Part shown: in pieces, positions 761-37,436 of the stretch
Numbering within the stretch: the stretch's first letter is position 1
Layout of the letters: every line of letters starts with the position of its first letter
Source: Glossina fuscipes
Lineage: Eukaryota > Arthropoda > Insecta > Diptera > Glossinidae
DNA: 64,000 bases
Direction: 5' to 3'
Assembly: GCF_014805625.2 (NCBI RefSeq)
Contig: NW_023998415.1
Span: forward strand, 47,250,099-47,314,098
Position numbers and translations under genes: made by a program
Notes under the pieces: model-generated
Seen by the model: the letters and a program-made list of their open reading frames with translations, nothing else
Databases searched by the model: none
Told to the model about the DNA's origin: nothing

Positions 761-1055
761 ATGAAACTTTTAACTGCGGTAAGTTGCGTGAATCGCGTCT
801 CAACAAAAATAATATTCAAAATTTTTATCTTGTCTTCCATTGTGTTCTTTTTTCTTCATCTTCTTTTCTTTCTTCTTCATATAGACAATTTACTTATGCC
901 TTCTTTCGATTGCCTTTATTGCGATTGTCTCGGCCGTGCCTGTCGATGAGTCTTTGTTAGGCAATATTTATGAATCCGGAGATCAGCCAACCGCCCAAAA
1001 CTCGCAATCGATTTTTAAATTAAAAAAACTAAAAAAACTTCTTCTATGGGGTTAA
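761..1055 (+). CDS. Small secreted cationic peptide A (candidate antimicrobial peptide precursor)
   Basis: Two exons, 761-778 and 885-1055, joined across a 106-base intron (GTAAGT...ATAG), give a 62-residue protein. Residues 1-23 form a typical signal peptide: MKLLTA, then a hydrophobic stretch ending in IVSA. The mature part starts VPVDESLLGN, runs through a polar linker, and ends in KLKKLKKLLLWG before TAA. That tail can form a cationic amphipathic helix, and the last Gly could serve as an amide donor. The VP dipeptide right after the signal could be removed by a dipeptidyl peptidase, as seen in several fly immune peptides (inference). It has no cysteines. I do not recognise the family. A paralogue with the same exon layout lies at 12869-13127. 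TATA and initiator elements lie upstream in proper register. An antimicrobial role is inferred from composition only. Confidence 0.75.
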
Positions 1056-3420
1056 ATTTTGTCTGAGCCTTTTTCCCACGTATTACATTTTTCATAAAAT
1101 ATGATCATGCTTTTTACATCATTATTTTTAATATTTTTTTTAAAATTTAAATAAAAATGTAAACATTTTCTTATAAATTAAAATACATGTCTATGTGTCG
1201 TCTATGTGTGCGTGCGTGTGCCTGCGTATATATAAGGTCAAGTAAAAATCGTTACCATATATATATATATATATATATACATATATATATGCATGTATCA
1301 TCATCAATGTACATATAAATATATATAGTGAAGAAATTCTTCGCTAAATTCACTTGAGACGAGAGAGATGTAGCGAAAGAGAGAGAGGGAGAGAGAGAGA
1401 GAGAGAGATAGTAGTTTTATAACTAATAAGGTATTAAGTTTCAATATCGGCTTCGGGAAGATATATTGAAGAAGATTTTTTGTCACTAAATTCGTGTTTC
1501 ATTCGTCATTATACATCGGTCAACACTGAGCAGATGGCATTCTACCAGCGCGCATTTAAAGTCCGATAATTCAATCTACAATTTGCATAAGGATAGCTTT
1601 GTGTCCCGTCATTCGTCTCAAAAGTTAGTCAATTAGTACGAATGAATGACGATCGTTCCCATTATTCTCTACAAGAATCCCAAAAGAAGACTACGAAAAG
1701 CACTTAGCCGACAAGTCGTTTGAAATTCTCTATCATTAGATTTTAAAAAATTTCGAAAGGATCATAGACAATATTGAACAGCGAATGTTATGCAATTGCA
1801 TAATGAATGAAATGAAATGAAATGAAATAACAAAAAAAATAAGATAAAAATCACTCAACACCTTTTCCGCAAACTAAAAATAATTAACGAACACTTTGGT
1901 CATTAGATGAAAATTTTCGAAATTTACAAATAATCCTTTGCCTTAACTTCTTCTTCAGTTTTGCTTAACTTGACTGCCTCTGTCTACTAAATGCATTCTA
2001 CCTCTGACTCATCCAAATACGTTAAGTTAAGTGAGGTAAAGAAAGAACCCAGACTTGCTTAGACTATCACGTTAAAAGACCCGTAGAGTCGTCTTATTTG
2101 TCCGAAGACACAATGTCTAGAAATGAATTCATTTTAAGATTTATGGCAACTTGATAAGACGGAACATTTTGCTTCGAAAGATCATCCATTGGTCATCTAT
2201 TAGAGGTATTCTTAATCTTCGTAGGGTTTTTAATCTATATAGTCACCTCTATCTGTTGCGATTAGGTTTATTAGGATTATAAATATTGAATAAATGGCGA
2301 AAACAGTATAGAGGCGGGAAGCAGGAGTTAAAGTCGCTCTACAAACACATGCCCTTACTATACTAATATTTACCAAATACATTAATCGCATGCATAATAT
2401 TAACCTAAAAGTCACTGCTAACATTTACTGCAAATATTTCAACTTTAACGCGGTAATGTATCCAAATGATTACTCGATAAGTCCACATTTAAAGCAGCTA
2501 TCGAAGAATTGCACTTTATTCGATATCCTTGCCAGAAGTTCGAAGCAAAACACCCATCAAACGTATGTGTTCTTAAGTAATTTAATTACTACTTCGAAAT
2601 GACTTACCCGCTATCATTTAATCTGTCCGTATGTCCATTCCTCTGTCTGCTTATCATAGGTTAATTCGAATGCAGAAATTTCGGTATAGATAAGAATGAT
2701 TTCCGCGAACGACTGACGATACTCGCCATAACAAAATGATCTCTTCATGTCATCCTATATTGATGTAAAACTTAAAAGAGAAATTATTTCGTGAAATTCT
2801 TTCAAATTTCATGACAACAATCAATATTCGCGATTGACTCGTGACTTAATAACACGGCGCCTACACGAAAAAAGAAAACGAAAACTGTACAAGATATTGA
2901 ATAAAAACTCTTGCGCCCAATTACTGAGCAGAGTAAAAAAGTTCTAATTAACCATAATAAACAAAACGCTTGTGAATTTTTATGTATCGCTCTACGGCAA
3001 TAGAAAAGCACATAAAATTTCGATTACTTGTTAAGTGTTGGGTTGAGGGTATGAATATTTAAAGTTTCGCCGGAGGCGACTACATCTTTCTTCCTTATTG
3101 TGTTCTTCTTTTACTCTCTAATGCTAAGACATAGCTGTTGGGTCACTGACTTTAGCTCATTTGAATATGAATATTTTAAATATTTTTACTAATTTCTAAA
3201 CCAGTTAGTTATTTATTGTTAAAACAACAAAATCCAAAACACAATCTTAGATAAATGAATTCACGCTTGAGAGTATACAATAAACACTGTTGCAACGAAT
3301 TTTCGTGCACCCATCGCATAAGGCATAAATTCATTTCAGGTAAAGTGTTCAGAATTTTGTATTAACATCTGATTCCCTCTTATCGGTGCAAAATTTCCTC
3401 TTTTATAACCCAATATCACT
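1056..3420. other. AT-rich intergenic DNA
   Basis: Apart from the two microsatellites and scattered A/T runs I see no coding exon here. The open frames are short, lack family similarity and lack matching splice signals. Confidence 0.55.
1258..1410. repeat. (TA)n and (GA)n microsatellites
   Basis: A (TA)n tract lies at about 1258-1290, and a purine (GA)n tract at about 1376-1410. Both are simple sequence and explain the Leu/Ser-repeat shadow reading frame on the minus strand. Confidence 0.9.
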
Positions 3421-3429
3421 TGTGATACA

Positions 3430-3700
3430 GGATATATTAAGTTTGTGCGAATGTATGCAATAGGCAGAATTGCTTAAGACAGACCCGCCTTTTCTTATAT
3501 CGATCGATTCAGAATCATTATTTGAATTGATCTAAGTCTGTCTGCCCGTCTACCCATGTAAATTTGTGTTCAAGCAACAGGTCGAAATTTTTGAGATATA
3601 TTCATAATATTGAATACAGTGAGATATTTTGACTCAGGAACGAACGCTATTACAAATGGTTTGGATCGGTCCAATTTTTCAACCACTCCCCATATAACGT
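3430..3700 (+). repeat. Mini-me-like dispersed repeat, copy 1
   Basis: This stretch contains the core ATCGATCGATTCAGAATC, followed by GTCTGTCTGCCCGTC (a (GTCY)n tract). An arm reading 'gaacgaacgctattacaaatggtttggatcgg' (broken here as gaacgaacgctatt / aaatggtttggatcgg) ends in ACCACTCCCCATATAA. The same order of blocks recurs at 10035-10320 and 11160-11400. Mini-me elements of Diptera are described as a conserved core flanked by (TA)n and (GTCY)n tracts, which fits; the family name is an inference. Confidence 0.65.
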
Positions 3701-4808
3701 CCTATTTTGTGAAGCCGTTTTATGAGAAAAATAGCAATTTCAAAGTGCCTAAGTAATCTTAGGCACTTCTACATTCTAAATTGGTATGAAAACATTGGAC
3801 TGGTGGGGGAAATTTTTTTTTCAACCACATCTCAAAGAACGAAAACTGCAGTACGTATGACAAAACAGTCTAATTTTCAATGCCTCGTGATGAGAATCAG
3901 ATCGTAATACTAATTTAATTAAAAAAAAAAAAAATTAGTTGCAACAAGTTTGAACCATTTCGACCTACCCTATGTTGGGTCGTACCCTTGATCCCTTGAT
4001 TGATAATTTCTAGCTCAGAAAAGTTAAAGTTTTAACAAGTTATGATGAAACTTAACCCCTTGATGGTAATTTGAAATAGAAAAAATTCAAATTTTACTAA
4101 ATTTGGACTATCTACGCCCATATTTGGATCCTATACGATTTAGGGATTTTCATGAAAATTTCTGTTTTTTAGGACAGAAATTCGAAGCTTCAATATTTTA
4201 TGATGAAAATGGATTCATAACCGTAGTTTGATGTAAAAACTGACATTTTTGTACGTCTTGGGTGCAACCATTCTTATGGAAGGCAAGCCTTCATTTGCAA
4301 AGACGTCTAATTTTTAATATAACAATAGGGTCGAATTTTTTGCGATCTCTGGCAGGAATAAGAACTGTGTTAGACAATATGATGTGGGGTAGGGCTTAGC
4401 CCGATTTGTTAATAGCTCAAAACTTTGGGCGAGCTTGCGATGTCATCACATTCACTCGAACCCAATTACTGAGCGAAAAATGATAGATTTTCACAAGTTA
4501 AAATGCGAAAATAAAAATATATAAAAAGCGAACGGAAGCGACTAAATGTAATGAATCATTACAAAACGGTCCGATAAGCTGTTAAAAGAGAATATTTTTG
4601 AAATTTGATATGAGATGTATATGAATAAACATAACCTAAAAAAATGTTTTGCTAATCAAGCATTTTTAATATATTCAGATATAACAACTGGAAACACTAG
4701 CATGATCTTTGACGGATTCTTATGATAAATTTTCATCATTCATTACATGGTGAATTATATTTTACTGCATTCATATAGAATAAATATCTTTATGTATAAA
4801 AAAATATA

Positions 4809-4849
<41 letters not shown>

Positions 4850-4941
4850 ATTCATTTACGGACATTGAAAAAGAAAAACAAAAAAACTTTCAACGCTGTT
4901 GAAGCATAAATAAGCGATAAACACATTTTGATATCTCGATC

Positions 4942-4991
<50 letters not shown>

Positions 4992-5370
4992 ATTATCTAT
5001 AAGAAAATCCCAATCAAATATTTAAAACAGAAATAATTTGAAATCAATGTAAGTAACACGTAAATAAGCAGAGATTTCTTCAAGTCTACCGCCAGTCTGC
5101 CAGTCTGCAAGTACGATAAAGTATTTTGTACTTTGAGTACAATTTTTTAGGGAAATTTCTCAAAACTTGTTCAGCGATTTTTCTTATTTCATATAACTAT
5201 CTTATCTTCATATTTCTTACTAATTATTACATATTACGAATTTATTACATTTTAATAATGATCGGTTTTTTTTCTTTTTGTTATCATACCCAACAGTGTA
5301 AGATGGGAATAAACTCATTTCGTTTTTTTTGTTTTTTTTTTTTTTATAATATATGTAACACCCAAAAAGA
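3700..5370. repeat. Degenerate repeat arm and two long poly-A tracts
   Basis: Sequence after copy 1 continues as AT-rich repeat-like DNA. Two long A homopolymers lie at about 4815-4848 and 4946-4990. No coding exon is supported. Confidence 0.6.
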
Positions 5371-5374
5371 AGCT

Positions 5375-5960
5375 TCAGAGACCCTATAAAGTATATGTTT
5401 ACTTGATCAGCATGAAATTCTGAGTCGATTTACCCGTCCCTGCTCGTCTGTTCGTCTGTGTGTTGTGTGTTGTTGGCACTCTCCTGGTCGCAATAATGAA
5501 AATATCGCCTTCAAATTTCGTAGAAACATTGCAAGTTTCTCCCAGCAGGCCAGTATTAAAAACGAGAAGAAGTGCGTAATGGAGCGTAAACTGAACGCAA
5601 CTCCGTTTCCTTTTGACAAAAATTTTTGGATTTTCGCTCGTTACTCAAAAATTATAAACGCTAGAAGACTGGAATGTTCCAAGTGTACTTTAGGAAGCAC
5701 TCCATTGCTTACGTGCCAAAGTGGAAAACATCCGCGATGCCCACATACACTTACAAGTAATTAAATTTATTTTTTTTTTCACCTTTTCGAGATTTTATGC
5801 TTGTTTATCATAAGGCATCTAAGACCGAATGTTGAAAACTCCTTAAGTGAAGATATATTGTTCGCGTTAAAAATGAATTAATTTGAAAATGAATATGGTA
5901 GACATCGAGATCACTTTTTTCTTTAAAATGCGAAATAGTGGTGGGTATGCGAGATTCGAC
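5375..5960 (+). repeat. Mini-me-like dispersed repeat, copy 2 (long form)
   Basis: It begins GACCCTATAAAGTATATG, then has the core CTTGATCAGCATGAAATTC and TGAGTCGATTT, then CTGCTCGTCTGTTCGTCTG. The arm contains GGAGCGTAAACTGAA and, further on, AATATGGTAGACA. All these blocks recur in the same order at 43585-44120, so this is a real dispersed family rather than chance. The minus- and plus-strand frames of 70-99 codons inside it are not genes. Confidence 0.8.
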
Positions 5961-8590
5961 CCCCGCCGTATATAGCTTTCTTACTTAATTTTATGTGAAA
6001 CAAGCATAGGCTCTTATTAATGATAAATAATATTGAAAATAGAATCCATCGTTAGCTAGACATTTTTCATATCGTCTTGACAAGACCGGCTATCTACAAA
6101 TGTACGTAATGGGTTAAATAATGTTAAAAGAATGCAAACTTAGTCGACCAGACAATCAATTATCGGCTGTACGAATCTAATTAGAGGAAGATTTAATTTG
6201 TAGGAGATTTTGAGTCAATTCTTTCTATACAAAAAAAAGGATTTTTTTTGATCTGAAATTGTAGACAAAATATGTACTGTATATACATATATATATATAT
6301 ATATATAACTATTTTGAACAAAAATAGTTCTAAAAGTTCAGCTAAAAGTCAATGGGAAGCCTTAACCTGTTGCCTACTTACACATCAGTTATATCAAGCT
6401 AAGTAAATGGAAATGGTATATAAAAAATCGCAATGGACTTAAGATAGGCCCCTACCAAAACGATAGACTCAATATCCTTGTCTGAAGCGAATTAAACTCA
6501 ACCCTCTCTCCACTGTGACAAATATTTGCATTTAAACTATTCGTATAAAATTTTTGAAATATTTTGAAGAAATTTGCTAAAGTGACATCTTTCGACCAAA
6601 GAACTAACGCTTTGTAAATGGATTAGATCTGCTTAACAACACCCTATTTTGGCAAATTTATTATCTGCATATTTTGTAAATAAATTGAAAAAGTATGGAT
6701 TTTGAAGGTTACCGGATAACTTAGATCATATGCTTGCCTCTATTGGAAACTCGATCGTAGTTGAGATTTAAACCGCTTGATTCCATATATTTGCAAAATA
6801 ATCGCAATTTACTAGTATCCCAGCCTATTAAATTGATGTGAAAAGTTTGGATCGAATGGATCAATGTTTCGCAGTCCGGTTCTAAGACAAGTAAGTTTAC
6901 ATTACACAATTATCTAAATTTTAATATTTATAATGAAAATTGATCTGTAATCGAAATTTAATATAGAAATTCGCTATAGTAAATTTGCACCTCGTAGACC
7001 TATTTTTTTCGATTTTATCGTATTATATCACTGGACAATCCGGATCGCCATCTGAAAAGTCTATCATATTTATCCATGCCCCTAGCCCTCCAGACTTTAG
7101 AATTTTTATGAATCCCAACAGATTTTTCTTTCCGTTTTCTTGCATTAAGCGTCCTAAGCGTAGCGAATAGTTTCGGTGACCATTACGATATTAACATGGC
7201 TCGCTTTTAACGCCACAAGAAGACCTCAGAGCTTCCTCATGGTCCTACGATTTCAAATTGCTAAGTAAATAGTTAACTCTTTCGCCCCACCATGAACTCT
7301 CGAGCGATCTTGTGAAAACTAAGATGTCGTAGGATAACAAAGCCTAGTTTTTAGCACCCTAAGGCGAATTTAAGAGAAGAATAATAAATTCTTTGACCAC
7401 AACATATGATTTTTTAAATTTGTGGCCCGCTCCACATGGAAATAAGTTATGATTTTTGATATTTTATAATGAAGATAAATGATAAATAAACAATTATATT
7501 AGACCAAATTGTATAGAGTACTTAGGAGTCGGCCTTATCCTGCTATAATGTCCTCACTTGTCTTTTTAATTACAAAATCCAAGTTCAAGTACATAATAAC
7601 AATAATCAATAATAAATAATTTTGAATCAACAGAGGGTATATTAAATTGTTCGCAAGATATACAACATGAACTCCAGAAGAGTTCAGGATTTTGGTTTTA
7701 TGTCGTCATCTTTGAAATTACAACTGTGTACTGTGTACTGGTAGAAAATTAATTTCACATTGCATTTAAAAGTCTTTAATGACCTTTGCTATTATCGTTT
7801 AGGAATAGAACGCCGGAATTGCCTATTAATTGCAGCCAAATGGACGCAATGTAATAATCGGCTTGGTCACACTAAACTTTAATAAAAAACTTGACAAAAT
7901 CTCTGTTATTTTCATTAAGACATGATTACACCTTATCCCATATTAATGCCTTTTTATAGCCAATAATTGTCTGGATAAGCTTATTAATACTTAAGAGCGG
8001 GTGGGTGAGTGCCCACTAGAATATTCGTGCAGCGAACCTGATGTCCTCTATCCTCTATGTTTAAGGCGCCAGTGATAAGACTTATAATACTTATGTCTTC
8101 ACATCGCCGCCTTTCTACTACAAGAAATATATGAAAGCTTAGGCAACTACTGTACTATACTGCACTGTACTGTACATAGAATCAAATCGCATGAAATTGA
8201 GTTTAGTGTATATTCACTATTCTATTGCCAATACTTGGTAATTTTGAAGGTTCACAATTTCTGTGTACAAGTAATTAGTGAAAGATTGTAGGTAAAAATA
8301 AATAAATGAAAACAAGTAATTAAGTAAATTATAGTCAGTCGAGGTCGATCATTAAATACTCTACAGTGATTTCACACAGTTCATACAGTTATTCATTCAC
8401 TTTCGTAATAATACACCAAAAATTGTACATCATTTTCATGTAAGATCATAATCTCTCTCTCTCTCTCATGAAAGCCCTTACACTGAACGATGTTCGAAAA
8501 ACTGACATGAATGACAAATTTAGAAAACTTAATTTTCCTCGTTTTGAAATATGGAAGGGCATACTTTTGACACGACAACCTCACACGCAT
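5960..8590. other. AT-rich intergenic DNA with repeat fragments
   Basis: There is a (TA)n tract at about 6283-6307. Around 6580-6660 a stretch resembles the arm of the mini-me-like family ('accaaagaactaacgct', then 'aaatggattagatc'). I find no supported gene. Confidence 0.5.
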
Positions 8591-8596
8591 GAGATA

Positions 8597-8680
8597 GAGT
8601 CCAAAGAATCATAGAGTCAAAGATCAATATGATCCCATGAGTCCAAAGAATCATAGAGTCAAAGATCAATATGATCCCAA
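8597..8680. repeat. Perfect 42-bp tandem duplication
   Basis: The unit starting GAGTCCAAAGAATCATAGAG and ending ATATGATCCCA occurs at 8597-8638 and again, head to tail, at 8639-8680. The identity suggests a recent duplication, or less likely an assembly artefact. Confidence 0.9.
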
Positions 8681-9149
8681 CTTCCAAAATGGCTCATTAC
8701 AAAGTTTAAAAAATTTAATTTTTCTTTTACCGAAAGACTTTGCGTTCATGAGAACCCCTATATGAAAAGAGATCGAAAAAAGTGGACCCATATGATTCAA
8801 ATTTGATTATTAAGAATGCGTTTCAAAACATTTAATAATTTTGATCATAAAATATTGGGCATTTTTGCTATCTAAAGTCTTATTTTTCATGACAATTCTT
8901 ACATCGGGTATGGGGTCCAAAAAATGGAGCTACATAGTCCAAATTCGGCAAGGTTCATTTCAATGCAAAAATGACTATTGCGGACCAATTTTTACCAAGA
9001 AATATCAAAAATTCGACTTTTTTACCCTACAAAGATTTAGGATTTTCCTTGGAGCGTTGGCTATTTAGAAGGCATTCAAAACATTACCCTAAAAGATGGA
9101 AATTTTTGGTAATGCCATAATAATACTACTAAGCGATTTTAATGACTTT

Positions 9150-9260
9150 TCAAAATAGGGCGTTGGTCCAGATCGAAAACAAGAATACGTGAAGAGACAT
9201 CAGATGAACAAACACAGAGACGGAGAAGCTTAGATCGATTCAATATCGGAATAATAATAA
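9150..9260 (-). repeat. Mini-me-like dispersed repeat fragment, minus strand
   Basis: The reverse complement reads GAATCGATCTAAGC, then CCGTCTCTGTGTTTG, then an arm with GATCTGGACC. This matches the core and GTCY block of the family in inverted orientation. The flanks, 8690-9150, contain further degenerate arm-like sequence. Confidence 0.55.
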
Positions 9261-10034
9261 GTGTGTCTGCCTTAACGGCCTAAGTCATCCACTTAAAACT
9301 TAATATACCCGTACCATAAGTGGTGTAAGGTAAATTGAGTATATTCCATAATGAAACCGGTTTAAAGCAATCCTGCAAACTTAATATTTGCAAACATATG
9401 TAAATCATACACAAAACATGAAAACAATTTAAGTTAATTAAATTTCAAACCACCTTATAAACGACAAACACTTAAAATTTTTGCCAAAATTGCAGCGTCT
9501 TAAGTGCTCGTGTATAACTTTCTCCGAATTCAAGCGTTTTTACTTTACGTTAGAAACGATCGTTTTCTCCGCTTTCTTCCGCTACGCAAAGGTAGAAACG
9601 TTTCCGTTATTAAGAAATCCAACATGGCTTTGTAGAAGTAAGATCAACCGTAATGAACTTTCCTGAGTGTAGTTGTCATCTTTCACAGGTTATTCACTAC
9701 TAGCTAAGCTCTTTCACTAAGCTAACTATAAGTTATTGATTCTTGAACTTTAGTTCTTTCATTTCTCTCCGTACTTGTCGAAATGGCTCAGCCCTTAGAT
9801 TCGCCTCAATCGATTCGCTTCGCCGATTAATTTCCCGTGACGTCATTTATCTCGAGCTTATCTATCCATCTCTCCGTCCGTCTATCTATGAATAATATTA
9901 AATGAATCTATGCCTATTTTTTATTTCAATTTTTTTGTCTTGAAAATTTCTTTCTATCTTACCCATCTATATATATGTTTGTAAACATATATTTGTTTTG
10001 TTGCCACACCGTATACGACTTGCCGTACAAGGGT

Positions 10035-10320
10035 CTATTAATTTTTGAGGATGTATGCAACGTTCAAAAGCAATTGAGGCGGACCCATCTTTTATTATAC
10101 CGATCGATTCAGAATCACTAACGGACTTGTCTGTCCGTCTTTTTATCTGATTTTCTTATGTTTAACTTACATATCGCAATTTTCGCCATATTTTGATAAA
10201 ATGTGGTACATCGACGTGTTTTGACCCAAAGGCAAACACTATTGAAAATGGCTTGGATCGAAGCATTTTACCGACCACTCCCCATATAAAGTCTTAATTC
10301 GAGAATTCGAAACGAAGTTG
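10035..10320 (+). repeat. Mini-me-like dispersed repeat, copy 3
   Basis: Blocks in order: GGATGTATGCAACG, GGCGGACCCATC, ACCGATCGATTCAGAATCA, CTTGTCTGTCCGTC, ATGGCTTGGATCG and ACCACTCCCCATATAAAG. This parallels copy 1 almost block for block. Confidence 0.75.
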
Positions 10321-11159
10321 TGTAGGGTGCTGAATGGTGGGCCGCCTCCTACTATTGCGTTTTCTCTTCTTTTTTTATCGTTTACATGGTTTCCTACAGA
10401 CATGTTCACATATGAACTTAGACTCTCAACTTGACCAACAGTTTTATGAACTTAACGAATAAATTTATCTACATTTGTAGTTGGCTGGTTGGTTGATACT
10501 GGCCAAGGTAGGCGCAAAAACAGGTTTTCTATTTTCTAATCATCGAATTATGGCTACAAAAAGCACATAAACAATATTTAAAAAAAAAAAACATTTTACA
10601 TATAAACTTGTGTTTTCATGTTTGTCTGGGCATGTATGTCTACATTCGTGATGACATGTGTTAAATTTTTAGAGATATTAAAAAGTTAGGTGTGCGGACA
10701 TGACTCCCAGCTCCCAGTTCTCTGAACGTTCCTACCATACGCACTACCATACTTCAATTAAAACATCGATAATGAATGGCGTTGACAGGCGTTCTTTGTT
10801 GCCCATCATCGGTGTTTAGATCGAGTAGATTTTGTGTCGCACCTATACATCTACTTATGGGCAAGCATTGTTCAATGTTCAGAGAACTCTATTATAAATG
10901 TTGTGGTAACTAAGTAAGTAAGACGTTGCGATTTTTTCAAGGTTAATATAGCATTTTGTTCACGGAAATATCGCAAGCGACATTAGACTCGAGAATGGAT
11001 ATAAAAAATTTAAATATAAAATAAATTTTCTTAAACCAGTGCCATAAAGCCGTTCTGGTATGGTAAGGTCTACGATACCTCTGATCGCAACATACATTCG
11101 CACGATACGCTCACTGATCGTATGTCGTATCTCACATTTTCGTTTATTCACAAATTATA

Positions 11160-11400
11160 TTTATACCCTGGACCATTCGCGGTACAGAGTATATTAAAAT
11201 TGCCCGTACGGAGTATTATGTCGATCGATTCAAAATCATTTTGTAAATCGATCTTAGCCTGTCTGTCAAGCTGCAGGTCGCAATTTTTGAGATATTTTTA
11301 TGAATTTTGGTATACTGGCATGCTTTGACGAACCAAGGACGAACTCTATTAAAAATTGTTCGGATCGATACATTTTTCCAGAATTGCAATTTTCCCAGCT
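11160..11400 (+). repeat. Mini-me-like dispersed repeat, copy 4
   Basis: It starts TTATACCCTGGACCATTCGC and contains GTCGATCGATTCAAAATCA, CCTGTCTGTCAAGCTGC and an arm with GGACGAACTCTATT. The ATTATACCCTG-type start is common at the edge of fly repeats of this kind. Overlapping frames on both strands here are shadows of the repeat. Confidence 0.7.
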
Positions 11401-12270
11401 TGCTCGACAAAAGGCCCTGGGTAATAGTATTTCGATATTCTCAATTAGTATGAAAAATTTGAAATGGTTGGAGTCGTTTTTTGAACTCCCTCTCTTATAA
11501 TCGTTCCTTCGAAACCTGAATCTGTACATGATAAAAAAGATATAATTTTTAAATATGTTATGGTTCAAACTTACCGATTATGAACCACGAAGTTTACTTG
11601 TTTTTATTAAATTACTAGAGCAGTTCGTCATATATTAGCCCTAATTGGTATTATTGAACGCACTCACAGCATAGCATATACTTATGATTATGAACGAAGG
11701 GAAACATAATTAAGGTAAAACAGGACAAACAATTCTCATTAAAATACGTAATAATAGAAGAATTGCTATGTTAGCGGTATTATGAAATAGATTTCGAATT
11801 ATTAGAATTTTGCTACCCTGATAGCAAAGCAAAGCTAGGGGTACATTAGATAAACTTTCAAGTTCCACCTCACGCCAAAAACTATAGACAGAATTTGAGG
11901 CGAAAGGCTTATGGGAAATGCCAATCCAAACTAAGTTAGCGCCTTAGGTGAAACAATTTGACGATACTGTCGTGTCTTGCCGATTTTATGTTGCCACCAT
12001 CCGTTACCCTATGCTCTAATGTTCAGAAACGTTTCCTTTAAATCTTCAGTATAGAAAAACCGAGCCTATCTACGAATACAGATTTAAACTAACTTCGTAA
12101 ATTCGAAGCAATTATCAACGAATGCCGATATATGTATGTATGCTTTGATTTATTAAGTTTATTATCAATAAAAGTACTAATTATTCATTACCGATCGTAA
12201 ATAAAATACCCTCCAAAGTATTTAGCAAATTAGCAAAATGTGAACAAATACACTTATAGATTTAAACTTG

Positions 12271-12322
<52 letters not shown>

Positions 12323-12730
12323 ACATCACAACATTGAAGCATCATTAAACACAACAACAAAAACTAATGATTTGAACTGCATGAGTATTGTGATTCCTTT
12401 GTTTTGTAGGTATTTTCGACGATAAAATCAGCATACATTCATAGTCATGCTGTTAGTCAAGCGTTTTTGTAAGGGGTTTCTATGAAATGCGCGCATACAT
12501 CAAAAGTTTTCTGTATAGAAATATTTGGTTCGCATTCACATACATTTACATGTAAACTTCTTCGTAGTGAGGCAGGGCTGTTTTTTTTTTTTTCATTTTT
12601 CTTTCTTTTTTTTTTTTTATTGAGAAGATACATTTGTTTTTTATTCATTTATTTATTTGCGTATTTTATTTTTATATTTTACTGAATTATGTCAACGTCG
12701 TTTAGCAAGCTTGGAATAAAAATTTGTTAA
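11400..12730. other. AT-rich DNA upstream of peptide gene B, with (TA)n tract
   Basis: A (TA)n tract covers about 12276-12319, and poly-T and T-rich tracts lie at about 12581-12620. One weak kappa-B-like word, GGGGTTTCTA, occurs at 12473-12482, roughly 290 bases before the predicted start of transcription. No gene is seen before the TATA box at 12737. Confidence 0.5.
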
Positions 12731-12736
12731 CGGCGC

Positions 12737-12774
12737 TATAAATACTGAAACCCTAAGTAAATTCAATGTCAGTT
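12737..12774 (+). promoter_or_regulatory. Core promoter of small secreted peptide gene B
   Basis: TATAAATA at 12737-12744 and initiator TCAGTT at 12769-12774 sit in the same register (TATA about 34 bases before the initiator A) as at peptide gene A. The predicted 5' leader is about 98 bases to the ATG at 12869. Confidence 0.75.
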
Positions 12775-12868
12775 GGTTTTGCTTTCAACAGTCGGTTATA
12801 CGGTTTTTTCGAAACATTATTTCTTTGTAAACTAAGGAACTAGTTTAAAAACAAAAAAAAATAGCAAT

Positions 12869-13127
12869 ATGAATTTCCTGCATTTGGTATGTGCGATCTT
12901 AGCTCTTCTTATAAGAAACTTTTAAAAAACGCGTTTAATTAATTGTTTTTTAGTCATTACTTACGTTTTTAATAATAAATATTGTCGCTGTCTATGCCGT
13001 ACCAGTGGACGAGTCAATATTACATCCAGATGTACAAGGATCTAATTCGGAATACATTCACCCTACAGATAATCAAGAAATATTTTTGAAACTGAAATTG
13101 CTGAAAAAGATTTTATTCTTTGGTTAA
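12869..13127 (+). CDS. Small secreted cationic peptide B (paralogue of peptide A)
   Basis: Two exons, 12869-12886 and 12954-13127, are joined across a 67-base intron (GTATGT...TTTTTAG) and encode 63 residues. Exon 1 is exactly six codons, as in peptide A, and the intron is again phase 0. The signal peptide is MNFLHL plus a hydrophobic run ending in VAVYA. The mature part begins VPVDESILHP and has an acidic/polar middle (SNSEYIHPTDNQE). It ends IFLKLKLLKKILFFG before TAA. The shared VPVDES(L/I)L block, the FKL/FLKLK...LKK tail and the terminal Gly show common descent with peptide A, while the linker has diverged strongly, as in immune peptides. There are no cysteines. The function is inferred from composition. 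Confidence 0.78.
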
Positions 13128-14533
13128 TATTTATATAAATTTATAGAAACAAATAATGCTACAGAATATATTACTTATATGCATATACTTATATAAATTT
13201 AAAATGCAAAATAATTTTTAAATGAAACCGTTTTTGCACTAAACACTTATTTTTCACAAAACAATAATCTTAATATGCTTACCCTGTGATTTCTAAGAGC
13301 TGGTAACAATTGACTTTGAAAAATCCCTGTTATTCCCAAACGAGTTTCACATACATTATACGTACCAATTAGACAAAATTATATTCTTTGAAAAACAGCT
13401 GATTTCTATGTCGCAAAATTATAAAATTTTTTGTTTAGGAAAACAATTATAAATATGAAAAACGTTGATTTCTGTTTCTAAATTGCATTTTTGATTAGAA
13501 ATAAATACTCTATGTGATTTAACAGGCTTATTTTTACATCTTACAAACATACTTCAACAAATGTAATACGAATCTTATAACCGTTGTAACAAACAAATAA
13601 AACTAAAAAAGCTAAAAACTTTATATAATCTTATCTATATAACCTAAAAAATATATAAATTATGTTAGTTTCAGACAACTTAAGAAACTTAATCCATAAA
13701 CGCAATCAGGTATATTTTCCCGATTCGTTAAAAAATAATTGGCAGAATCTGTAGAAAAAAATAGTAAAATTAATAATATTGAAACTATCCTTGATTTGAT
13801 AATTTGTATAATTTTTATTTTTAGCAAAAAAGTTTATTACGTTCATTCAATAAATGATCATATCGCTGTTTTACAATTTTTAAAAGTAATGTATCAAAAA
13901 TAATATGAAAAAATAAATACATCTTAAAGACAATTTTTTTTGCAAACAGTTCCCAATTTATATTAAGAATCATCCATCATTAAGAATACTCTACCATTTA
14001 TGTCTACTTAGAAGGATATTACTTTCTTCCTTCCTATTTCAATAGAATCGAAAGTGAAAAGCACGAAAAAAGTATTGAAATATTACTTTAATTGAGAATG
14101 CGTCTCTTGTCTAATTTCGAAAATAATGAGCACATTCAATTAAATGTGGCAGAATCAGATGTTGGCTATGACACAAAAATATCTCGTTAACATTTGTCTG
14201 CATAGGCATGGTTCTGTAGTATCTTAAAAATTTGAACACCTGGTGTAAAGCTTAGCCATCTTATCGTACTTAACGTAAACGCAACGTAAATGAGTTGTGA
14301 ATACAAATTTAAAACTCCTGGCAACATTAGACTACTGCTAAAGAATTTGTGATTTTTTAATAGTTTTTTTTTTTTTTTTTGGTTAACGAAAAGAAAATTA
14401 AGATCAAAATTATTTAAAAAGAAAAATTTCTCAACAATATCTTATAAATTACAATCAGCAAATATAAAACGTGTGTAGTAATTATAGGGAACAAAGAAAT
14501 TTTAAATATATACAGTCAGAAAATAAAGGCAAA
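13128..14533. other. Intergenic DNA between peptide B and YOD1
   Basis: AT-rich DNA with a poly-T run at about 14365-14380. No exon is supported. The final 60 bases before 14534 are presumably YOD1 leader. Confidence 0.5.
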
Positions 14534-15643
14534 ATGACTGGTTCAACATTTAGTTTAAAATTAAAATCGAAAAAAGGTCAATTCATTGTCAAGGACTTGA
14601 ATAATTCGACGACGGTGGCAGATTTGAAAGCTCGTATAGCGCAAATGACGCAAATTAACGAACCACAATTGAACATACTAGTCGGCTTTCCACCGCGTCC
14701 ATTGGATATCACACACGATACGCAAAGAAGTTTAGAATCGACGGGCATATGCAGTGGTGAAACGCTTATCATCGAAGAAAAGCCCGAATTTAACGCAATC
14801 CAACAGTCTCTCGAGGAGGACGAAGCGTTAGCACGTCGCCTGCAAGAAGAGGAAGAGCAAGAACAGTTACGTCAAGTGGTGGAAGCCGACGAAGAGGGTA
14901 GTCGGGTTCAATTGCCACCAGGATCCAGCGGTAATTTCAATGGCGTTTTAATGAAACGTGTTGTACCGGCTGATAATTCTTGCCTATTTACAAGCATACG
15001 TTTTGTATTGAATGGAAAAATAGATAACGAAGGCAGTGAAATGATGCGTCACATTATTGCTCAAGAAGTGGCGGCCGATCCGCAGCAATATAGTGATGCT
15101 GTTCTAGGTAAATCGAATTCAGAATATTGTGCTTGGATACAAAAGCCTGATTCGTGGGGTGGAGCAATTGAAGTGGCAATACTTTCCAGTTATTATGGCA
15201 TTGAAATCGATGTTGTCGATATTCAAAATGCTATAATTAATCGTTTTGGCGAAGATAGAAATTATGGACTGAGAGTTTTTCTACTATTTGACGGCATACA
15301 TTATGATCCGTTATATATGGAAAATGAGGTGGTAAGTACCTAAACGTAAATATAAACTTGATATGATAACTTTACGGCAATCTATTTGCTCATACAATTT
15401 TCTAAATGCAATTTGCTTAATTCTTTTAAGGGCGGAGCACCCGCCACAATATTTCCTGTAGAAGAGTTGGGTGTCTACCAACAAGCTGAACAATTGGCGA
15501 AAGAGGCAAAATCCTCCCGCCAGTTCACTAATGTTGATCATTTCTCTCTACGATGTTTGCAGTGTGACATCAAACTTGTGGGCCAGGCGCAGGCATCGCA
15601 ACATGCCACAGAAACTGGCCACAATAATTTTGGCGAAATTTAA
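14534..15643 (+). CDS. YOD1: YOD1/OTU1-type ubiquitin thioesterase
   Basis: Exons 14534-15331 and 15431-15643 (GTAAGT...TTTTAAG) encode 336 residues, close to human YOD1. This cysteine deubiquitinase works with the p97/VCP segregase in ER-associated degradation. Residues 4-85 form the ubiquitin-like UBX-type domain that binds p97. Residues 94-109 (EEDEALARRLQEEEEQ) resemble a ubiquitin-interacting motif. The OTU domain starts around 137, with the catalytic ADNSC loop (Asp147, Cys150) and the catalytic His in DGIHYDPLY (His256). Exon 2 carries the C-terminal C2H2 finger (CLQCD...HATETGH) that ends the family. The open frame extends 21 codons upstream, but without an earlier in-frame ATG, so 14534 (AAAATGA) is chosen. 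A polyadenylation signal AATAAA lies about 70 bases past the stop. Confidence 0.95.
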
Positions 15644-21152: not shown

Positions 21153-23614
21153 ATGGCGATTCGATTATTTCTGTTTAGCTCTATTCGAACATTATGTGTT
21201 TTAAACAGAACAAGTCCCATAATTCATAGAACACATATGCTCACAGTAAATAATACAAAAGCAATATTTTCTCAAGGCTTGCATATGAAAACTTATGACA
21301 AAGATGCCGGCTTTGATAAAGAAAGGGAAATGAATAAGTTACAAATGGGACAGGAAGAGCCTCTATTTAAACCAGTGGAATCAATAAAAATCGATAGCAG
21401 AAGGTCGAGAAGGGAAACTTTAAGAAAAGAATCTCAAACCGAAAATTTCAAAGTTACGGAAAATGACATAAGAGAACAGAACAAGTCCCTTCATTTCGAT
21501 TCCATAAGTTCAATTAATAATGATCCTGATACATTTGGCAATGCTGTGACGACAGAAGCGCTAGAGGACGAGGGTATTTCATAGTTTTCTATATATGAAA
21601 AGCGCTTATAAATATTTTAATCATTATTATTCAGGTGACAAAGTTGAGGAAGAATATATTAATAGTCCTACAAGGCATTCGAGAAAGTTACGCACTAAAG
21701 AATACGCCCTTTTAATAAAAGATCACTTAAATAATCATCGCCTAAAGGAGGCAATCAATATTTTGGAGGAGCGTATACTTAAAGAGGATCGAGCTAAGCC
21801 GGAAAATTATATTTACAATCTTCTAATTAGTGGATGCGCTAAGGCAGGTTATGCCCGCAAAGCTTTTCAATTGTTTACGAAAATGCGTCAGCGTGGATTG
21901 AAAGTAAAGCAAAGCACATATACGTCATTATTTAATGCTTGTGCGAATGCTCCGTATCGGACAGACGGAATTGATAAAGCTAATCGTCTTAGAGAAATAA
22001 TGTTGGAGAAAAATTATGAACCAAATGTTAAAAACTATAATGCTATGATTAAAGCTTATGGACGCTGGGGTGACGTCAAAACCGCTTTTTTGTTGGCTGA
22101 TGAAATGAAGGAAAAAGGATTTGAATTCACAACAGAAACTTATAATTTTTTGCTGCAAGCCTGCGCTAGTGATCAGGAATTTGGTTTTCGGTATTTATGC
22201 ATAGCGAAAATTTCTACTGTCATTTTATAAAAATTTTCTTTCTAGCCATTGCTTACTTACTTGGCATAAAATGCTAAAAGCAGGCATCAAACCAGATTAT
22301 TACTCCTTTAACGCTGTTTTACGTTGCACCCGCGATTGCAGTTTTGGTGATTTAGATAGTATGCAGCAGGTTTTAAAACAAATACTTGATGGGCCTGATG
22401 TTCCTCAAGTTGCTACCGCTGAAGAAACTCTGCCGATATTAAATCATGAGAGTTCAAGTGAGATTGGAAAAACTAAAAATCCTTTCACAGACTCTAAAAA
22501 ATCCTCTCTACAACCGCAAGCCACCATAAACCAGGCTTTGCAAGTGCAAACAGATGCAACTAGTTTGGAATTGCCCAACCTATTGGCGCCTCGACCACAT
22601 TTAGGTAGCATGATATCGCTCGCTGAGGTGCAGAAGCCGCATGAACGTTTTTTACTCTTAGGCGGTCTTAGCTGTTTCCTAGAACTCATGAAATCTTGTA
22701 ATATAACACCGGACATAGAAACATTCACTAGTATGTTGGAAGTAATACCGCCTACCAATACTGCCGAAAAACAACTATTGACTTTTATACGCAAAATTGG
22801 CCTTAAGGCCGATATAGATTTCTTTAATATTCTTATCAAGAAGCGTTCTATGCGCTGCGACTACGAAGGAGGTAAAGAGGTTTTAACAATGATTAAAACA
22901 GCCGGATTAAAGCCAGATATTGTTACTTACGGGGTTCTAGCTTTGGGTTGTACTAATGAGGAAACTTCACGAGAGCTTTTGCGACAAATGAACGATAATG
23001 AAATTAGGTAACGAGTAAAAACAAAAATGATATCATATATCTTAACTTATTTCCCTTTCAGAATGAACATTGAAATTTTAGGCGCTATGCTACGCCAAGG
23101 TTGCGAACACAATTCATTTCCTTACGTCTGTGAAATTATGCAAATTAGTTTGGACGAGAATGTCAAGCCAAACCCTTTATTTTTGAGACATTTGGATAAT
23201 TTCTATATAAAATGTGCCCGAGCAATCGATGCCCGAGTAAGTTCTTACTAGCCATTGTATATTATATTTAATTTCTTAACGTTCCAATGATTTTAGCGTC
23301 CTTGGACAAAAACTAAAACGTTCAAGAAAAATCATATGAAGTTCTGCGATAAGTATCGTTTATACCAAGAAGAACATGGTATATTAGGCTTAAAGTTAGA
23401 CGATGCAATCAAAAAGCTCAGACAAAGACCATATGATTATTATAAAGAGGATACGATAGATGGATTGGAAAATATAAAGAACGAAAAATTGGCACGTAAG
23501 CAAAAGCTACGTAAATATATCAAGAAAATCAAAGTAGAAAATCTTAAAGGAGATGAAACTCAGTTTGCAGACGACCTTCAAAGAAGAGACAATCAAACCC
23601 TCAAAATAGATTAA
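21153..23614 (+). CDS. PTCD1: PTCD1-like mitochondrial pentatricopeptide-repeat protein
   Basis: Five exons join in frame to 743 residues: 21153-21573, 21635-22190, 22246-23007, 23062-23236, 23297-23614. The N terminus (MAIRLFLFSSIRTLCVLNR) is basic and hydrophobic like a mitochondrial presequence. PPR helices are visible as ENYIYNLLISGCAKAGYARK, STYTSLFNACANA, KNYNAMIKAYGRWGDVKTAF, ETYNFLLQACAS, DYYSFNAVLRCTRD, ETFTSMLEVIPP, DFFNILIKKRS and DIVTYGVLALGCTNEE. PTCD1 is an RNA-binding protein of the mitochondrial matrix implicated in leucine-tRNA processing and 16S rRNA/mitoribosome maturation. The true start is the ATG at 21153. The tail is Lys/Arg-rich (KLRKYIKKIK). It converges on TP53RK with 60 bases between stop codons. 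Confidence 0.9.
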
Positions 23615-23674
23615 GTACATATATAAGTTTGCAGTAATTTTTATTTCTAAAAATAAATTGAATTTTGAAGTATG

Positions 23675-24370
23675 TTAACCAATCATGGTCCTTTTACGAC
23701 CTCTTGCTCGTACTTCTTCAAATTTTGCCACTACTGATACTTCATCTTCCCCGCATTGTTTGCGGTAAGCCTGCAATATGTATTCAAATAAATATGGTTG
23801 TTCACTATGGGTGCTTAACAAAGCCCGTTCTAAAACATATAAATCTACACCCTTGTCTTCCGCGCCTTGGTTGTAGTGACTTAACCCAAAATCTATAAAT
23901 ATCACTTCATAATCTATAAAATTGTTATTGACTTTAGGATTGATTAAAATATTTGATGTCGTTAGATCCCCGTGTATTATATTGTGAGCATGCATGCATC
24001 CTATAATATTTCCTACACGCTCACACAACGTCTTCAGAATCTCTCTTTGTTCATTTTGCTCTTTTTGTTCCTTTACCGCTCGCTCTATATATTCTTTAGC
24101 GGTTACAGCATTTTCATAAAATTCCATATAGATTTTACGCTCAGGCAAATCCATATGTAACATTCGGGGAACCAATATACCAGCAGCTTGGCATCTGCTA
24201 ACCGCTTTACTTTCAGCTTTCATACGTTGTCGTGTAATCTGCTGATCCAAGTCCGGATGACGATATTTTTTAACAAATCGTTCTTTAATAAGACATTTTC
24301 CACTCTTGTATTCACCTAAATATAAGCGCCCTTCGGCACCTTGTTTTAGTAAACCTTCCATAGAAAACAT
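23675..24370 (-). CDS. TP53RK: TP53RK/Bud32 atypical kinase of the KEOPS complex
   Basis: A single exon of 231 residues from the ATG at 24370 (a second possible start is at 24361). The open frame continues upstream without an ATG. Bud32/PRPK is the small kinase/ATPase subunit of KEOPS, which makes the t6A modification on ANN-decoding tRNAs; it can also phosphorylate p53 in mammals. Visible motifs are the glycine-poor N-loop LLKQGAEGRLYLGEY, the lysine segment CLIKERFVKKYRHPDLD, the catalytic loop HNIIHGDLTTSNIL, and the metal-binding IFIDFGLS in place of DFG. The basic tail RARGRKRTMIG is also typical. The size fits the family (about 220-260). Confidence 0.93.
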   Translation of the reverse strand: MFSMEGLLKQGAEGRLYLGEYKSGKCLIKERFVKKYRHPDLDQQITRQRMKAESKAVSRCQAAGILVPRMLHMDLPERKIYMEFYENAVTAKEYIERAVKEQKEQNEQREILKTLCERVGNIIGCMHAHNIIHGDLTTSNILINPKVNNNFIDYEVIFIDFGLSHYNQGAEDKGVDLYVLERALLSTHSEQPYLFEYILQAYRKQCGEDEVSVVAKFEEVRARGRKRTMIG

Positions 24371-25103
24371 TGACTTCAACTTTTTGCGTTGCAAACGTCC
24401 CTGTTAATGTGCATTTAATTCAAGTTGCATGAAGACGTATCAGCAGCCGTAAAGTGCGTGTGCTTTTACACATTGCAACAATTTGTGATGTTGCTTAAAA
24501 ATAAATATACTACTGAAAGAAAAAGTGTTCAAATTTCTTTTACAGAATACAAGAACAATGTAAACAAAGGTTGTAATTTAGTGGATAATTAATAATATTA
24601 GTAGTTATCAATTTTAATAATAGCGTTATGTGAAAATGTTTTTCTATCGTACGTAAAAGTGAACGAATTATTAAACACGTCACTTCATGTATCTTTTTAC
24701 GTCTGCATATTCATCTTAGCACAGATTACATGATTACTCAGTCAAATCGATTGACTAATCGGAGATTACTAAACTTAACAAATTTCATCATTCCATTTCT
24801 GAAAACATGACTCATATCTATGAATACTTCTTGGTTAAAATTAAGCATAATTTCAAACGTTTTAACCACGAAAATGTAATACAAAAGAACTTGTATTTGA
24901 AGATGTTAATCTCGTTCAATCGACCATTTGCACTGTTGACAATAGCAACTCTACAAAATGATCACAATAACACAGAGATGTTTGTGTCGAACAGCTGTCC
25001 TTATTGTTATTATTCGTCTGAGTTTTGGTCTGATTTAATGTAATTTGTGATTCATCTTGAGAAACTTTTTTTAAATTCAAAGTGACATCATAACCTCTGA
25101 AAA
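24371..25103. promoter_or_regulatory. Divergent promoter interval TP53RK / CHMP2B
   Basis: 733 bases lie between the start codons of two divergent genes. An E-box-like CAGCTG lies at about 24993. No TATA/initiator pair in good register was seen, as expected for housekeeping genes. A 78-codon frame at 24807-25043 has no family similarity. Confidence 0.45.
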
Positions 25104-25742
25104 ATGTTTAATAACTTATTTGGAAAAGCTCCGACTTTAAAGGAACAACAGCGTGAAAATGATAGGAATCTAAGAAAAGCAACCAGAGATATTGAACGTG
25201 AACGTCGGAAATTAGAAGAGGAGGAGAAAAAATTAGAGCAAGAAATACGGAAAAACGCCGCCCAAGGCAACAGTGATGTATGTCGGATACTTGCAAAGCA
25301 ATTAGTTGAAATACGTAAGCAAAAAGCACGAACATTCGCAGCCAACAGCAAAATAACTTCGATTGGCTACCAGAATAAAACAATTGGTACTAATGTGGCT
25401 TTAAGTAATGCAATGGGCACAACAGCTAAAACTATGGCCGAAATGAATAAAGTCTTGAGACCGGAAGGCATAGCTGCGAATGTTAGAGACTTTCAACAGG
25501 CCAATATGAAAATGGAAATGACTGATGAAATGATTAATGATACATTGGATGAAATGCTTAATGATTCCGATGACGAACAAGAAACTAATGCTGTAGTCAA
25601 CAAAGTCTTAGATGAAATTGGCATCGAAATTTCGGGTAAAATGGCTAATATACCGGCTGCCGGTTCAAGTGATTTAGAAGTGAAAGATATACGAACTGAT
25701 AAAGACATAGCAGAACAATTAGCTAAATTAAGATCAACGTAA
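25104..25742 (+). CDS. CHMP2B: CHMP2B, ESCRT-III subunit
   Basis: An intronless gene of 212 residues. CHMP2B is an ESCRT-III filament protein acting with VPS4 in membrane scission at endosomes, at cytokinesis and in repair. The N-terminal basic helical hairpin is plain (KATRDIERERRKLEEEEKKL...EIRKNA...KQLVEIRKQKARTFA). The central NMKMEMTDEMINDTLDEML block follows. Then comes the highly conserved VNKVLDEIGIEISGKMA near residues 167-183. The tail DKDIAEQLAKLRST matches an MIT-interacting motif for VPS4. The conserved residues favour CHMP2B over CHMP2A. It converges on the DHRS4 gene, with only 59 bases between stop codons. Confidence 0.96.
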   Translation: MFNNLFGKAPTLKEQQRENDRNLRKATRDIERERRKLEEEEKKLEQEIRKNAAQGNSDVCRILAKQLVEIRKQKARTFAANSKITSIGYQNKTIGTNVALSNAMGTTAKTMAEMNKVLRPEGIAANVRDFQQANMKMEMTDEMINDTLDEMLNDSDDEQETNAVVNKVLDEIGIEISGKMANIPAAGSSDLEVKDIRTDKDIAEQLAKLRST

Positions 25743-25801
25743 GAATATGTATTATATAGTTTAATAACCATTTAAGACGATTTATAATAATGCTTATGGA
25801 A

Positions 25802-26950
25802 TTATAATCGTGCACACATACCACCAGCTGCCACTATACTTTCACCAGTAATATAGCTGGCATCATCAGATACCAAAAAAGCTACTATACCAGCCATTTC
25901 TTCCGTCATACCCAAACGACGCATTGGGATTCTAGCTAAGACCATCTCTTCAGCCGTTTTCGATTCGTATAACTATAATTGTAAATGAATTTAATACTAG
26001 TTTTTTTCTTCCTTTTTGAAAGAACGCTTAATAAAAGTTCGAAGATTTCTTACCGACTTTGAAAATTTCGTTTTTATAATACCGGGCGCTAAGCAATTTA
26101 CTCGTATACCTTCCGAAGCTAAATCTTTCGCAGCCGCTTTAGTTAAGCCAATGAGAGCAGTTTTACTAACAGAATAAGCACCCAATAGCTAAACACAATA
26201 GAATTAGAAAGGGGAACTTTATCGGTATACAATGCATAATAGGTACCTCAAAGGCATCATAACCGGCTATAGAGGAGACGAACACAATGTTAGAATTTTT
26301 CTCTTTGCGTAACCATGGCAAGGCTTCTTTAGCCAGTAAATATGAAGACTTGACATTAACATCGAAAATTTTGTCCCAAACTCTTTCGTCACAATCTAAG
26401 ACACCACCAACCGCTGGATTTGTTGCAGCATTTGATACTAATATATTAAGTTTACCATATTTTCGTATGGTACCCTCAAACAATTCTTTGCGATCTTTTG
26501 CGTCGCCAACATGACACTTTAAACCAACAACATTCAATTGCAGTTTACACAATTCCTCTACAGCTCTATCAACATTATTCTGCTTGCGGCTGCTTATCAC
26601 CACATTGGCACCTTCTTGAGCTAAACGTTTTGCTATAGCAAAACCAATACTAGAAAGTAAAAATTTTATTTAAACGTATCGCAGTATGTGTATGCATTTC
26701 ATATTTCTTCTCACCCATCAGTGGATGCAGTGACTACTGCTACTTTCCCCTCTAAACGTTTCATGCTACTATTAGCTGCAAACGTATTGCTGCAATATCT
26801 ATTTTTGGAGATACTTTGGTTAATACCAACTATTGGAACGAACTTTTTGTAATGGTTTGCTAAAATAGGTTGCGTTAGTCGCGCGACACCTTTGCTCAAT
26901 TTAAAAGCCAGTATTAACGATGTTGTGGCATTTATTGCCGTAGTCTTCAT
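25802..26950 (-). CDS. DHRS4: DHRS4-type short-chain dehydrogenase/reductase, peroxisomal tail
   Basis: Four minus-strand exons (26715-26950, 26247-26649, 26054-26188, 25802-25972) encode 314 residues. The Rossmann glycine motif is VTASTDGIGFAIA. SNAATNP stands in for NNAG, and the catalytic residues are Ser in VSSIAG (about 204-205), Tyr218 and Lys222 in YSVSK. DHRS4 is an NADPH-dependent carbonyl/retinal reductase of peroxisomes. The C terminus ARL is a good type-1 peroxisomal signal. Unusually, about 65 residues rich in basic and hydroxylated residues precede the SDR fold and look like a mitochondrial presequence. An internal ATG at 26764 (SSMKRLEGK) would give the standard-length peroxisomal form. 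Frames join at GG|T and in phase 0 elsewhere. Confidence 0.93.
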
Positions 26951-28637: not shown

Positions 28638-29400
28638 ATGAGTTCACCCTCCACTAAATCGAACAATGACACAGTGTCCAATAAACAAAGAAAGTCCTCG
28701 AAAAATAGTTCGAATTCTAAATCGACAAATTTAGATACTCGAGCAGAGTTAGCAGATCTCATAAAGAAAAAGGCGGAAACATCCGTAAGTGTCGAAAATA
28801 AGCTATAAATTTCTAGCAGTCATTATAATTTTTATATTTACCGTGTGAAGGAGCAATTGGCAAATTTGGAAAGGCAAATATATGCTTTTGAAGGTTCCTA
28901 CCTAGAAGATACTCAATTATGTGGGAATATTATAAGAGGCTGGGAAAGATATTTAACTTCCAATAAGGCAACAAACTCTAAAGCAGACAAGCGTAATCGA
29001 AAGTTTAAAGAAGCGGAACGATTGTTTTCAAAATCTAGCATTACGTCGATGGCAATATGTAACCGTAGGTATTTCATATAAATTATTTGACCGCTCCGTA
29101 AGCATTCGTTGTTCTATTTTAGCCGAACGAGCTAGTGAGTCTGATTCAGTGACGAATGAAGACTCTAGCGATAATCAGATAACTTTAAATCAAAACACAA
29201 CCACAGTGCATGACGGAACCACCTGTATTAAAAGTTCTGGTAAAGATGATAAATCGGAACGGGCTGCTACACCACAGCGTGACATTAGCAAAGAGCCAGG
29301 GACTCCAAGCGCGACTTCAACTAAAAGTAAATTGCCTTCCAGCTCAAGTATAACTCCGAAGAAAAGTGGACACATCAATAAAAAAATACGTCACCGATGA
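28638..29400 (+). CDS. Eaf6: Eaf6, NuA4/MOZ histone acetyltransferase subunit
   Basis: Three exons (28638-28784, 28851-29064, 29123-29400) encode 212 residues. Eaf6/MEAF6 is a small scaffold subunit of the NuA4/TIP60 and MOZ/MORF histone acetyltransferase complexes in the nucleus. The core [38 protein letters not shown] (residues 34-72) is a coiled coil. [12 protein letters not shown] follows, then [20 protein letters not shown], which together define the family. The N terminus and the C-terminal part are Ser/Thr-rich and disordered, ending in the basic [11 protein letters not shown], a likely nuclear localisation signal. The intron after residue 49 is short (66 bases). Confidence 0.94.
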
Positions 29401-37424: not shown

Positions 37425-37436
37425 AATCGATCTATC

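Follow-up and report, generated by a model that had tools for sequence, protein, structure and literature searches.

A 64,000-nucleotide stretch of the Glossina fuscipes genome (contig NW_023998415.1, positions 47,250,099 to 47,314,098 of the forward strand; hereafter the window) carries two genes, 12 kb apart, that encode short precursors of 62 (copy 1) and 63 (copy 2) residues. Both belong to a family of likely secreted peptides with a Lys/Leu tail ending in glycine, whose members extend from tsetse and Drosophila to mosquitoes and sand flies. An earlier reading of the window made from its letters alone (the sequence-only reading) had proposed two genes of this length, each split by a phase-0 intron after a first exon of six codons, and coordinates, reading frames, tblastn searches and an NCBI gene model confirm them. 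The features of the two genes are as follows, the likely signal peptides being read from the sequence by eye.

610-616, + strand: TATA box of copy 1
641-646, + strand: initiator TCAGTT of copy 1
761-778, + strand: exon 1 of copy 1, six codons (MKLLTA), the same as the start of protein P0001
779-884, + strand: intron of copy 1, phase 0, 106 bp, GTAAGT...ATAG
885-1055, + strand: exon 2 of copy 1 including the stop (1053-1055)
885-935, + strand: remainder of the likely signal of copy 1 in exon 2; the likely mature part (VPVDES) starts at 936
C2:47250983-47251150: genome place of exon 2 of copy 1
1014-1052, + strand: Lys/Leu tail of copy 1, FKLKKLKKLLLW, with the terminal Gly (1050-1052)
1150-1155, + strand: AATAAA 3' of copy 1
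12737-12743, + strand: TATA box of copy 2
12769-12774, + strand: initiator TCAGTT of copy 2
12869-12886, + strand: exon 1 of copy 2, six codons (MNFLHL)
12887-12953, + strand: intron of copy 2, phase 0, 67 bp, GTATGT...TTTTAG
12954-13127, + strand: exon 2 of copy 2 including the stop (13125-13127)
12954-12998, + strand: remainder of the likely signal of copy 2 in exon 2; the likely mature part (VPVDES) starts at 12999
13086-13124, + strand: Lys/Leu tail of copy 2, LKLKLLKKILFF, with the terminal Gly (13122-13124)

In both copies the TATA box and the TCAGTT initiator are spaced by 31-32 bases. The NCBI gene model LOC119644976 of G. fuscipes (P0001) is identical to spliced copy 1 at 62 of 62 residues, and the Glossina protein P0015, whose UniProt code GLOAU we take to denote G. 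austeni, agrees with copy 2 at 61 of 63. When the window was searched by tblastn with either precursor as the query, the other copy was recovered, at E 1.0e-4 and 1.6e-5, and the next places had E values of 0.55 and 0.12. A profile of the family run against 3448 stop-to-stop frames of the window gave 7.3e-22 and 3.1e-19 for the two copies and 0.019 for the next frame.

A protein search with copy 1 alone returned seven proteins at E<=10, with E values down to 1e-9, and an eight-sequence profile found 135 proteins among 7971 scored candidates; one further row, P0121, matched weakly (E 7.2) in a search with a Sophophora profile of two sequences. Unless otherwise given, counts below refer to a set of 121 rows made up of the 120 listed of the 135 and P0121, where rows are database clusters rather than independent species and one shortened name is shown per cluster. 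All 49 rows that bear an organism name are from Diptera; with the other 72 nameless and the number of candidates capped, absence of the family outside Diptera is not established. The genera are Glossina, Teleopsis, many Drosophila, Scaptodrosophila, Musca, Haematobia, Cochliomyia, Sarcophaga, Bactrocera, Anastrepha, Rhagoletis, Phlebotomus, Bradysia, Culicoides, the Chironomidae Clunio, Diamesa and Polypedilum, and many mosquitoes; lineages were looked up for Teleopsis and Bradysia, and the remaining genera are assigned to Diptera by name. The rows are named "uncharacterized", "hypothetical" or "unnamed", or carry bare gene numbers. The family is not restricted to the higher flies, as mosquitoes, sand flies, midges and fungus gnats also have members, and the conservation of signal and tail in related species on which the sequence-only reading had staked its family was found well beyond the higher flies. 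No row named Drosophila melanogaster stood among the matches listed in the three protein searches, which does not establish its absence from that species. The only melanogaster-group member named among the matches listed, P0007 of Drosophila santomea, has a 35-residue N-terminal extension before the normal start. Scans of viral contigs and of genome contigs returned no relative.

A C-terminal Gly is present in 117 of the 121 rows, which suits amidation of the peptide, a modification that is predicted only. In two of the four exceptions, P0078 and P0085, a Trp comes after the tail Gly, and we infer that the source gene caller translated a TGA stop as Trp; the remaining two are gene models from Culicoides that carry extra ends. 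Over the last 11 residues before the Gly in 118 tails (the 117 and that of window copy 2), 1298 residues in total, there are 604 Leu, 549 Lys, 105 Phe and 27 Ile, together 1285 (99%), and 13 others, with Lys outnumbering Arg by 549 to 4. The tails of the window copies have 12 residues before the Gly. The order of Lys and Leu varies between paralog classes, and composition, length and the Gly end stay constant. The last 38 residues are free of Cys in 117 of 117 rows, and an X-P dipeptide (V-P, L-P, A-P and similar) directly follows the likely signal.

The acidic linker and the basic tail would balance each other in charge. For the 109 of the 121 rows in which the two parts could be separated, the linker has a median charge of -6, the tail of +5 and the whole of -1; the corresponding values for linker and tail are -4 and +5 in copy 1 and -6 and +4 in copy 2. 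The sequence-only reading had regarded the acidic part as a pro-region split from the tail, but a dibasic site occurs in just one of 109 linkers and in neither window copy, so that a cut between the two parts is unsupported. Uncut, the likely mature part would comprise 39 residues (4359 Da) in copy 1 and 42 residues (4824 Da) in copy 2 before amidation. The computed average masses of the predicted amidated forms are 4300.95 Da for copy 1 (4104.70 Da minus VP) and 4765.46 Da for copy 2 (4569.22 Da minus VP).

The intron was traced through the protein rows. In 34 of 38 annotated full-length precursors the likely signal is 20 residues long, which fits an intron after six codons, a position inferred here from proteins. 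Outside these 38, we examined the 33 rows with at least 20 residues up to the likely signal end and set nine aside, seven with a proper exon 1 (P0007, P0046, P0056, P0064, P0065, P0100 and P0101) and two that are odd gene models (P0082 and P0097). The remaining 24 are without exon 1 and resemble unspliced genomic frames, and in all 24 a Gln precedes the end of the signal by 13 or 14 residues and directly adjoins the exon-2 start. A phase-0 CAG splice acceptor would translate in this way. As far as the protein sequences tell, the position of the intron is old and has been kept in the relatives.

In a tree of 36 chosen rows, built on as few as 62 columns, the two tsetse copies fall into different classes. 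Copy 1 groups with class A, represented by 12 proteins of schizophoran flies (support 99/96), whereas copy 2 joins the class B proteins from Glossina, Musca, Cochliomyia, Sarcophaga, Teleopsis and Bactrocera (support 95/84); both classes are present in Teleopsis and in Cochliomyia. A separate second class (98/99) is made up of six mosquito rows, most of which have a KKLLLKKKLLLLG tail. From their placement in two classes, the tsetse copies seem to descend from an old duplication that predates the schizophoran spread. The DNA flanking the two copies can no longer be aligned except for T-rich stretches, and both copies have the features of family membership, namely the profile match, the six-codon exon 1, the xP start, the Lys/Leu tail and the terminal Gly.

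The reading that we prefer, while placing it somewhat short of an even chance, is that of a likely secreted, predicted amidated and charge-balanced peptide whose tail would bind negatively charged membranes, probably microbial ones, for host defence. Signal peptidase would cut after ...SA or ...YA, a dipeptidyl peptidase may trim the leading X-P, a step known for several defence peptides of insects, and the terminal Gly would be converted to an amide. As the family is without a dibasic cut site, the product would remain in one piece, some 36-42 residues long. Until the tail, which is predicted to be helical, meets and binds an acidic membrane, its positive charge would be offset by the acidic front, so that the peptide stays soluble and does no harm. 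That the order of Lys and Leu changes while composition, length and the Gly end are kept is in keeping with physical chemistry rather than receptor fit, and the retention of Lys against Arg, together with that of composition over order, is easier to reconcile with a lipid surface as the binding partner than with a receptor. Host defence at a surface is in our view the likeliest single use, an opinion that we hold tentatively. A bolder version, which we consider doubtful, is that of an order-wide, charge-balanced amidated effector that acts through its Lys/Leu composition and Gly end, by neither a classical amphipathic helix nor immune induction, and that would have been overlooked if D. melanogaster is without an annotated member; with the same doubt, it might stand as a third kind among the peptide effectors of flies, one that Diptera have retained throughout their history.

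Several observations weigh against host defence. The whole mature peptide is close to neutral, unlike cationic antimicrobial peptides, and the small number of rows per named species (at most two among the matches listed) and the few and steady tail patterns make the family look less arms-race-like. In the title that the sequence-only reading had given the family, "amphipathic" was the sole word that was not borne out. When the helical moment of the last 13 residues before the Gly was calculated at 100 degrees with one hydrophobicity scale, none of 117 tails reached p<0.2 against its own shuffles (median p 0.69), that is, none beat 80% of them, and the tail is thus not a classical amphipathic alpha-helix by this measure. 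Upstream of the two initiators, motif counts were compared with shuffles using the Relish and Dif/Dorsal definitions of PMC12419901, and no Relish motif was found within 250 bp of either copy (0.66 and 0.32 expected for copies 1 and 2), in a count made without a positive control. Two other small immune peptides of flies, Paillotin and Ibin, are reported not to kill in vitro (PMC12419901 and PMC12882233). Tsetse stomoxyn, which is described as constitutively expressed in the cardia, is also reported to be upregulated in the midgut by trypanosome infection (PMC11819587), which weakens it as a parallel for a constitutive defence peptide.

A scan of the helical moment at 14 angles over eight short stretches, of low power and uncorrected for many tests, placed the peak of the copy 1 tail at 125 degrees (0.62 versus 0.33, p 0.06), gave 0.88 versus 0.42 (p 0.02) for its eight-residue core and p values of 0.01-0.03 at 120-125 degrees for chironomid and D. 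santomea tails, and showed no clear peak for copy 2 and the mosquito second class. AlphaFold places a tail helix at residues 46-61 of copy 1, with another at 28-35, and at residues 47-62 of P0015, which is near-identical to copy 2, both at low confidence (mean pLDDT, the predicted local distance difference test, of 68.2 and 67.0, with blocks of 56-76). For copies 1 and 2, respectively, Dif/Dorsal motifs numbered two and one within 250 bp (0.64 and 0.28 expected; reached by 9% and 27% of shuffles) and three and two within 600 bp (1.29 and 0.66 expected), and Relish motifs numbered three and zero within 600 bp (1.83 and 0.69 expected). NF-kB motifs are thus not clearly enriched upstream of either copy, a result of little weight without a positive control; it would agree more readily with constitutive expression than with induction by Imd or Toll.

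Induction through Imd or Toll would make the peptides inducible antimicrobials, an explanation that we consider unlikely. The X-P after the likely signal, the cationic Gly-ended tail, promoters with TATA box and initiator, the slight excess of Dif/Dorsal motifs in 250 bp and a weak contact with the Pfam family DIM (13 of 38 members, best E 0.0024) would agree with it, but Relish motifs are missing from the proximal 250 bp of both copies and no known antimicrobial family scores above its cut-off. A peptide hormone or neuropeptide-like signal, secreted and C-terminally amidated as the ligand of a receptor common to Diptera, is to our mind just as improbable. A wide spread at no more than two rows for any named species among the matches listed, the C-terminal Gly in 117 of 121 rows, the preference for Lys over Arg (549:4) and the lack of NF-kB enrichment are what such a signal might show; however, a dibasic site is present in just one of 109 linkers, each precursor holds a single candidate peptide, and receptor fit would hardly permit the order of Lys and Leu to differ by paralog class.

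Less likely again is a surface or lipid-handling peptide, a tracheal, gut or salivary film former whose tail would coat lipid surfaces rather than kill. The tail, nearly all Leu, Lys and Phe, can be likened to designed Lys/Leu surfactant peptides, and its constant composition and variable order and the neutrality of the whole peptide would suit a film. Very short coding exons in AT-rich DNA might suggest that the copies are chance open frames or dead genes; we reject this as wildly improbable, since copy 1 has an NCBI model of identical sequence, other Diptera have relatives that match copy 1 alone at E values down to 1e-9 and match profiles at lower ones, and the intron position is the same in these. 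As an undescribed family retained by flies as far apart as mosquitoes, sand flies, tsetse and Drosophila, the peptides would add an effector or a signal to those known from the chief disease-carrying insects, and they raise the question of why evolution favours lysine over arginine and composition over order. If D. melanogaster is truly without an annotated member, the family would illustrate how research centred on a single species can miss a peptide present across an order.

No third copy was found in the 64-kb window or in the 20 kb upstream of it, a stretch that is partly masked. Searches of the 366-Mb assembly with exon 2 of either copy returned that copy alone and missed the other, so that the copy number in the genome is not firm. 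A genome-wide DNA pattern for KLKKLKKLL matched four places, copy 1 being the sole one within a gene of the family, and the reversed control pattern matched six. The best blastn match of about 1 kb around each copy was 33 bases of T-rich DNA (E 0.003). Between the copies (window 1056-12868), the ATG-started open frames are all of at most 87 residues, and short stretches such as ccgatcgattcagaatc, which by eye resemble old repeats, recur. The next-best frame in the profile search (E 0.019; window 58418-58990, + strand) contains by eye ankyrin-like repeats (PLHLACYYGNESIVELLL), and its score is probably due to a chance KLIKMKKFILY run. The peptide genes adjoin an ordinary gene block (window 14471-15343, + strand, and 21595-39920), in which Pfam identifies an OTU1-type deubiquitinase, a PPR protein, a small RIO/Kdo-like kinase, an Snf7/CHMP protein, a V-SNARE, a CoA synthase (a cytidylyltransferase-like frame and a CoaE frame), NF-YA and a C2H2 zinc-finger protein.

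The family appears undescribed, as the sequence-only reading had thought. Searches of the literature, with supplementary tables, subscription papers and preprints outside their scope, found no named member, and the 38 members touched 14 Pfam families at E values of 0.0024 or more; wherever a score could be compared with the cut-off of its family, it fell short. The best match, to DIM (PF08194), covers the signal region and the first residues after it and leaves the tail outside; membership was rejected on this E value, on the score of P0002 (18.5 bits against a cut-off of 20.8, residues 1-32) and on the uncovered tail. A profile search of the PDB gave nothing significant (best E 0.15). Cecropins are, in likeness to the family here, linear, secreted, helical and often amidated peptides, and membership was rejected as PF00272 is absent from the families listed at E<=10 for the 38 members and from those listed for a set of eight members and for copy 2 itself.

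Among known fly peptides, Paillotin of Drosophila (IM18, CG33706), with a 71-residue precursor, a 45-residue synthesized peptide and a 4625 Da peak, is also short and secreted, with an XA/XP dipeptide after the signal and its C-terminus most conserved (PMC12419901). Its mass per residue is about 102.8 Da, compared with 111.8-115.7 Da for the window copies; its authors did not find it outside Brachycera, Phlebotomus papatasi being searched, whereas the family here has P0004 in that species; and eight NF-kB motifs lie within 200 bp of Paillotin (PMC12419901), in contrast to the lack of enrichment upstream of the window copies. By description only, membership was rejected on length, mass per residue and range, and the nearness of copy 2 minus VP with its Gly (4627 Da, 40 residues) to the 4625 Da of Paillotin is taken as coincidence. 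GffStomoxyn is linear, cationic and Gly-ended and comes from the same fly species, but has a 68-residue precursor (PMC11819587) and, over 43 residues, contains 7 Lys and 4 Arg; membership was rejected since it gave no local alignment at E<=100 with P0001 (copy 1) or P0015 (near-identical to copy 2). Ibin and Mibin are tiny secreted fly peptides like those described here; they were rejected as relatives because their motifs, KNHEEWXG and RPXTLPPN/QRPXXPN/DF (PMC12882233), are by eye absent from the two window copies. Mibin, which occurs across cyclorrhaphan flies, often has an X-P after its signal, and such dipeptides are known in this position in insect antimicrobial peptides (PMC12882233), as they are found at the start of the likely mature part in the family described here.

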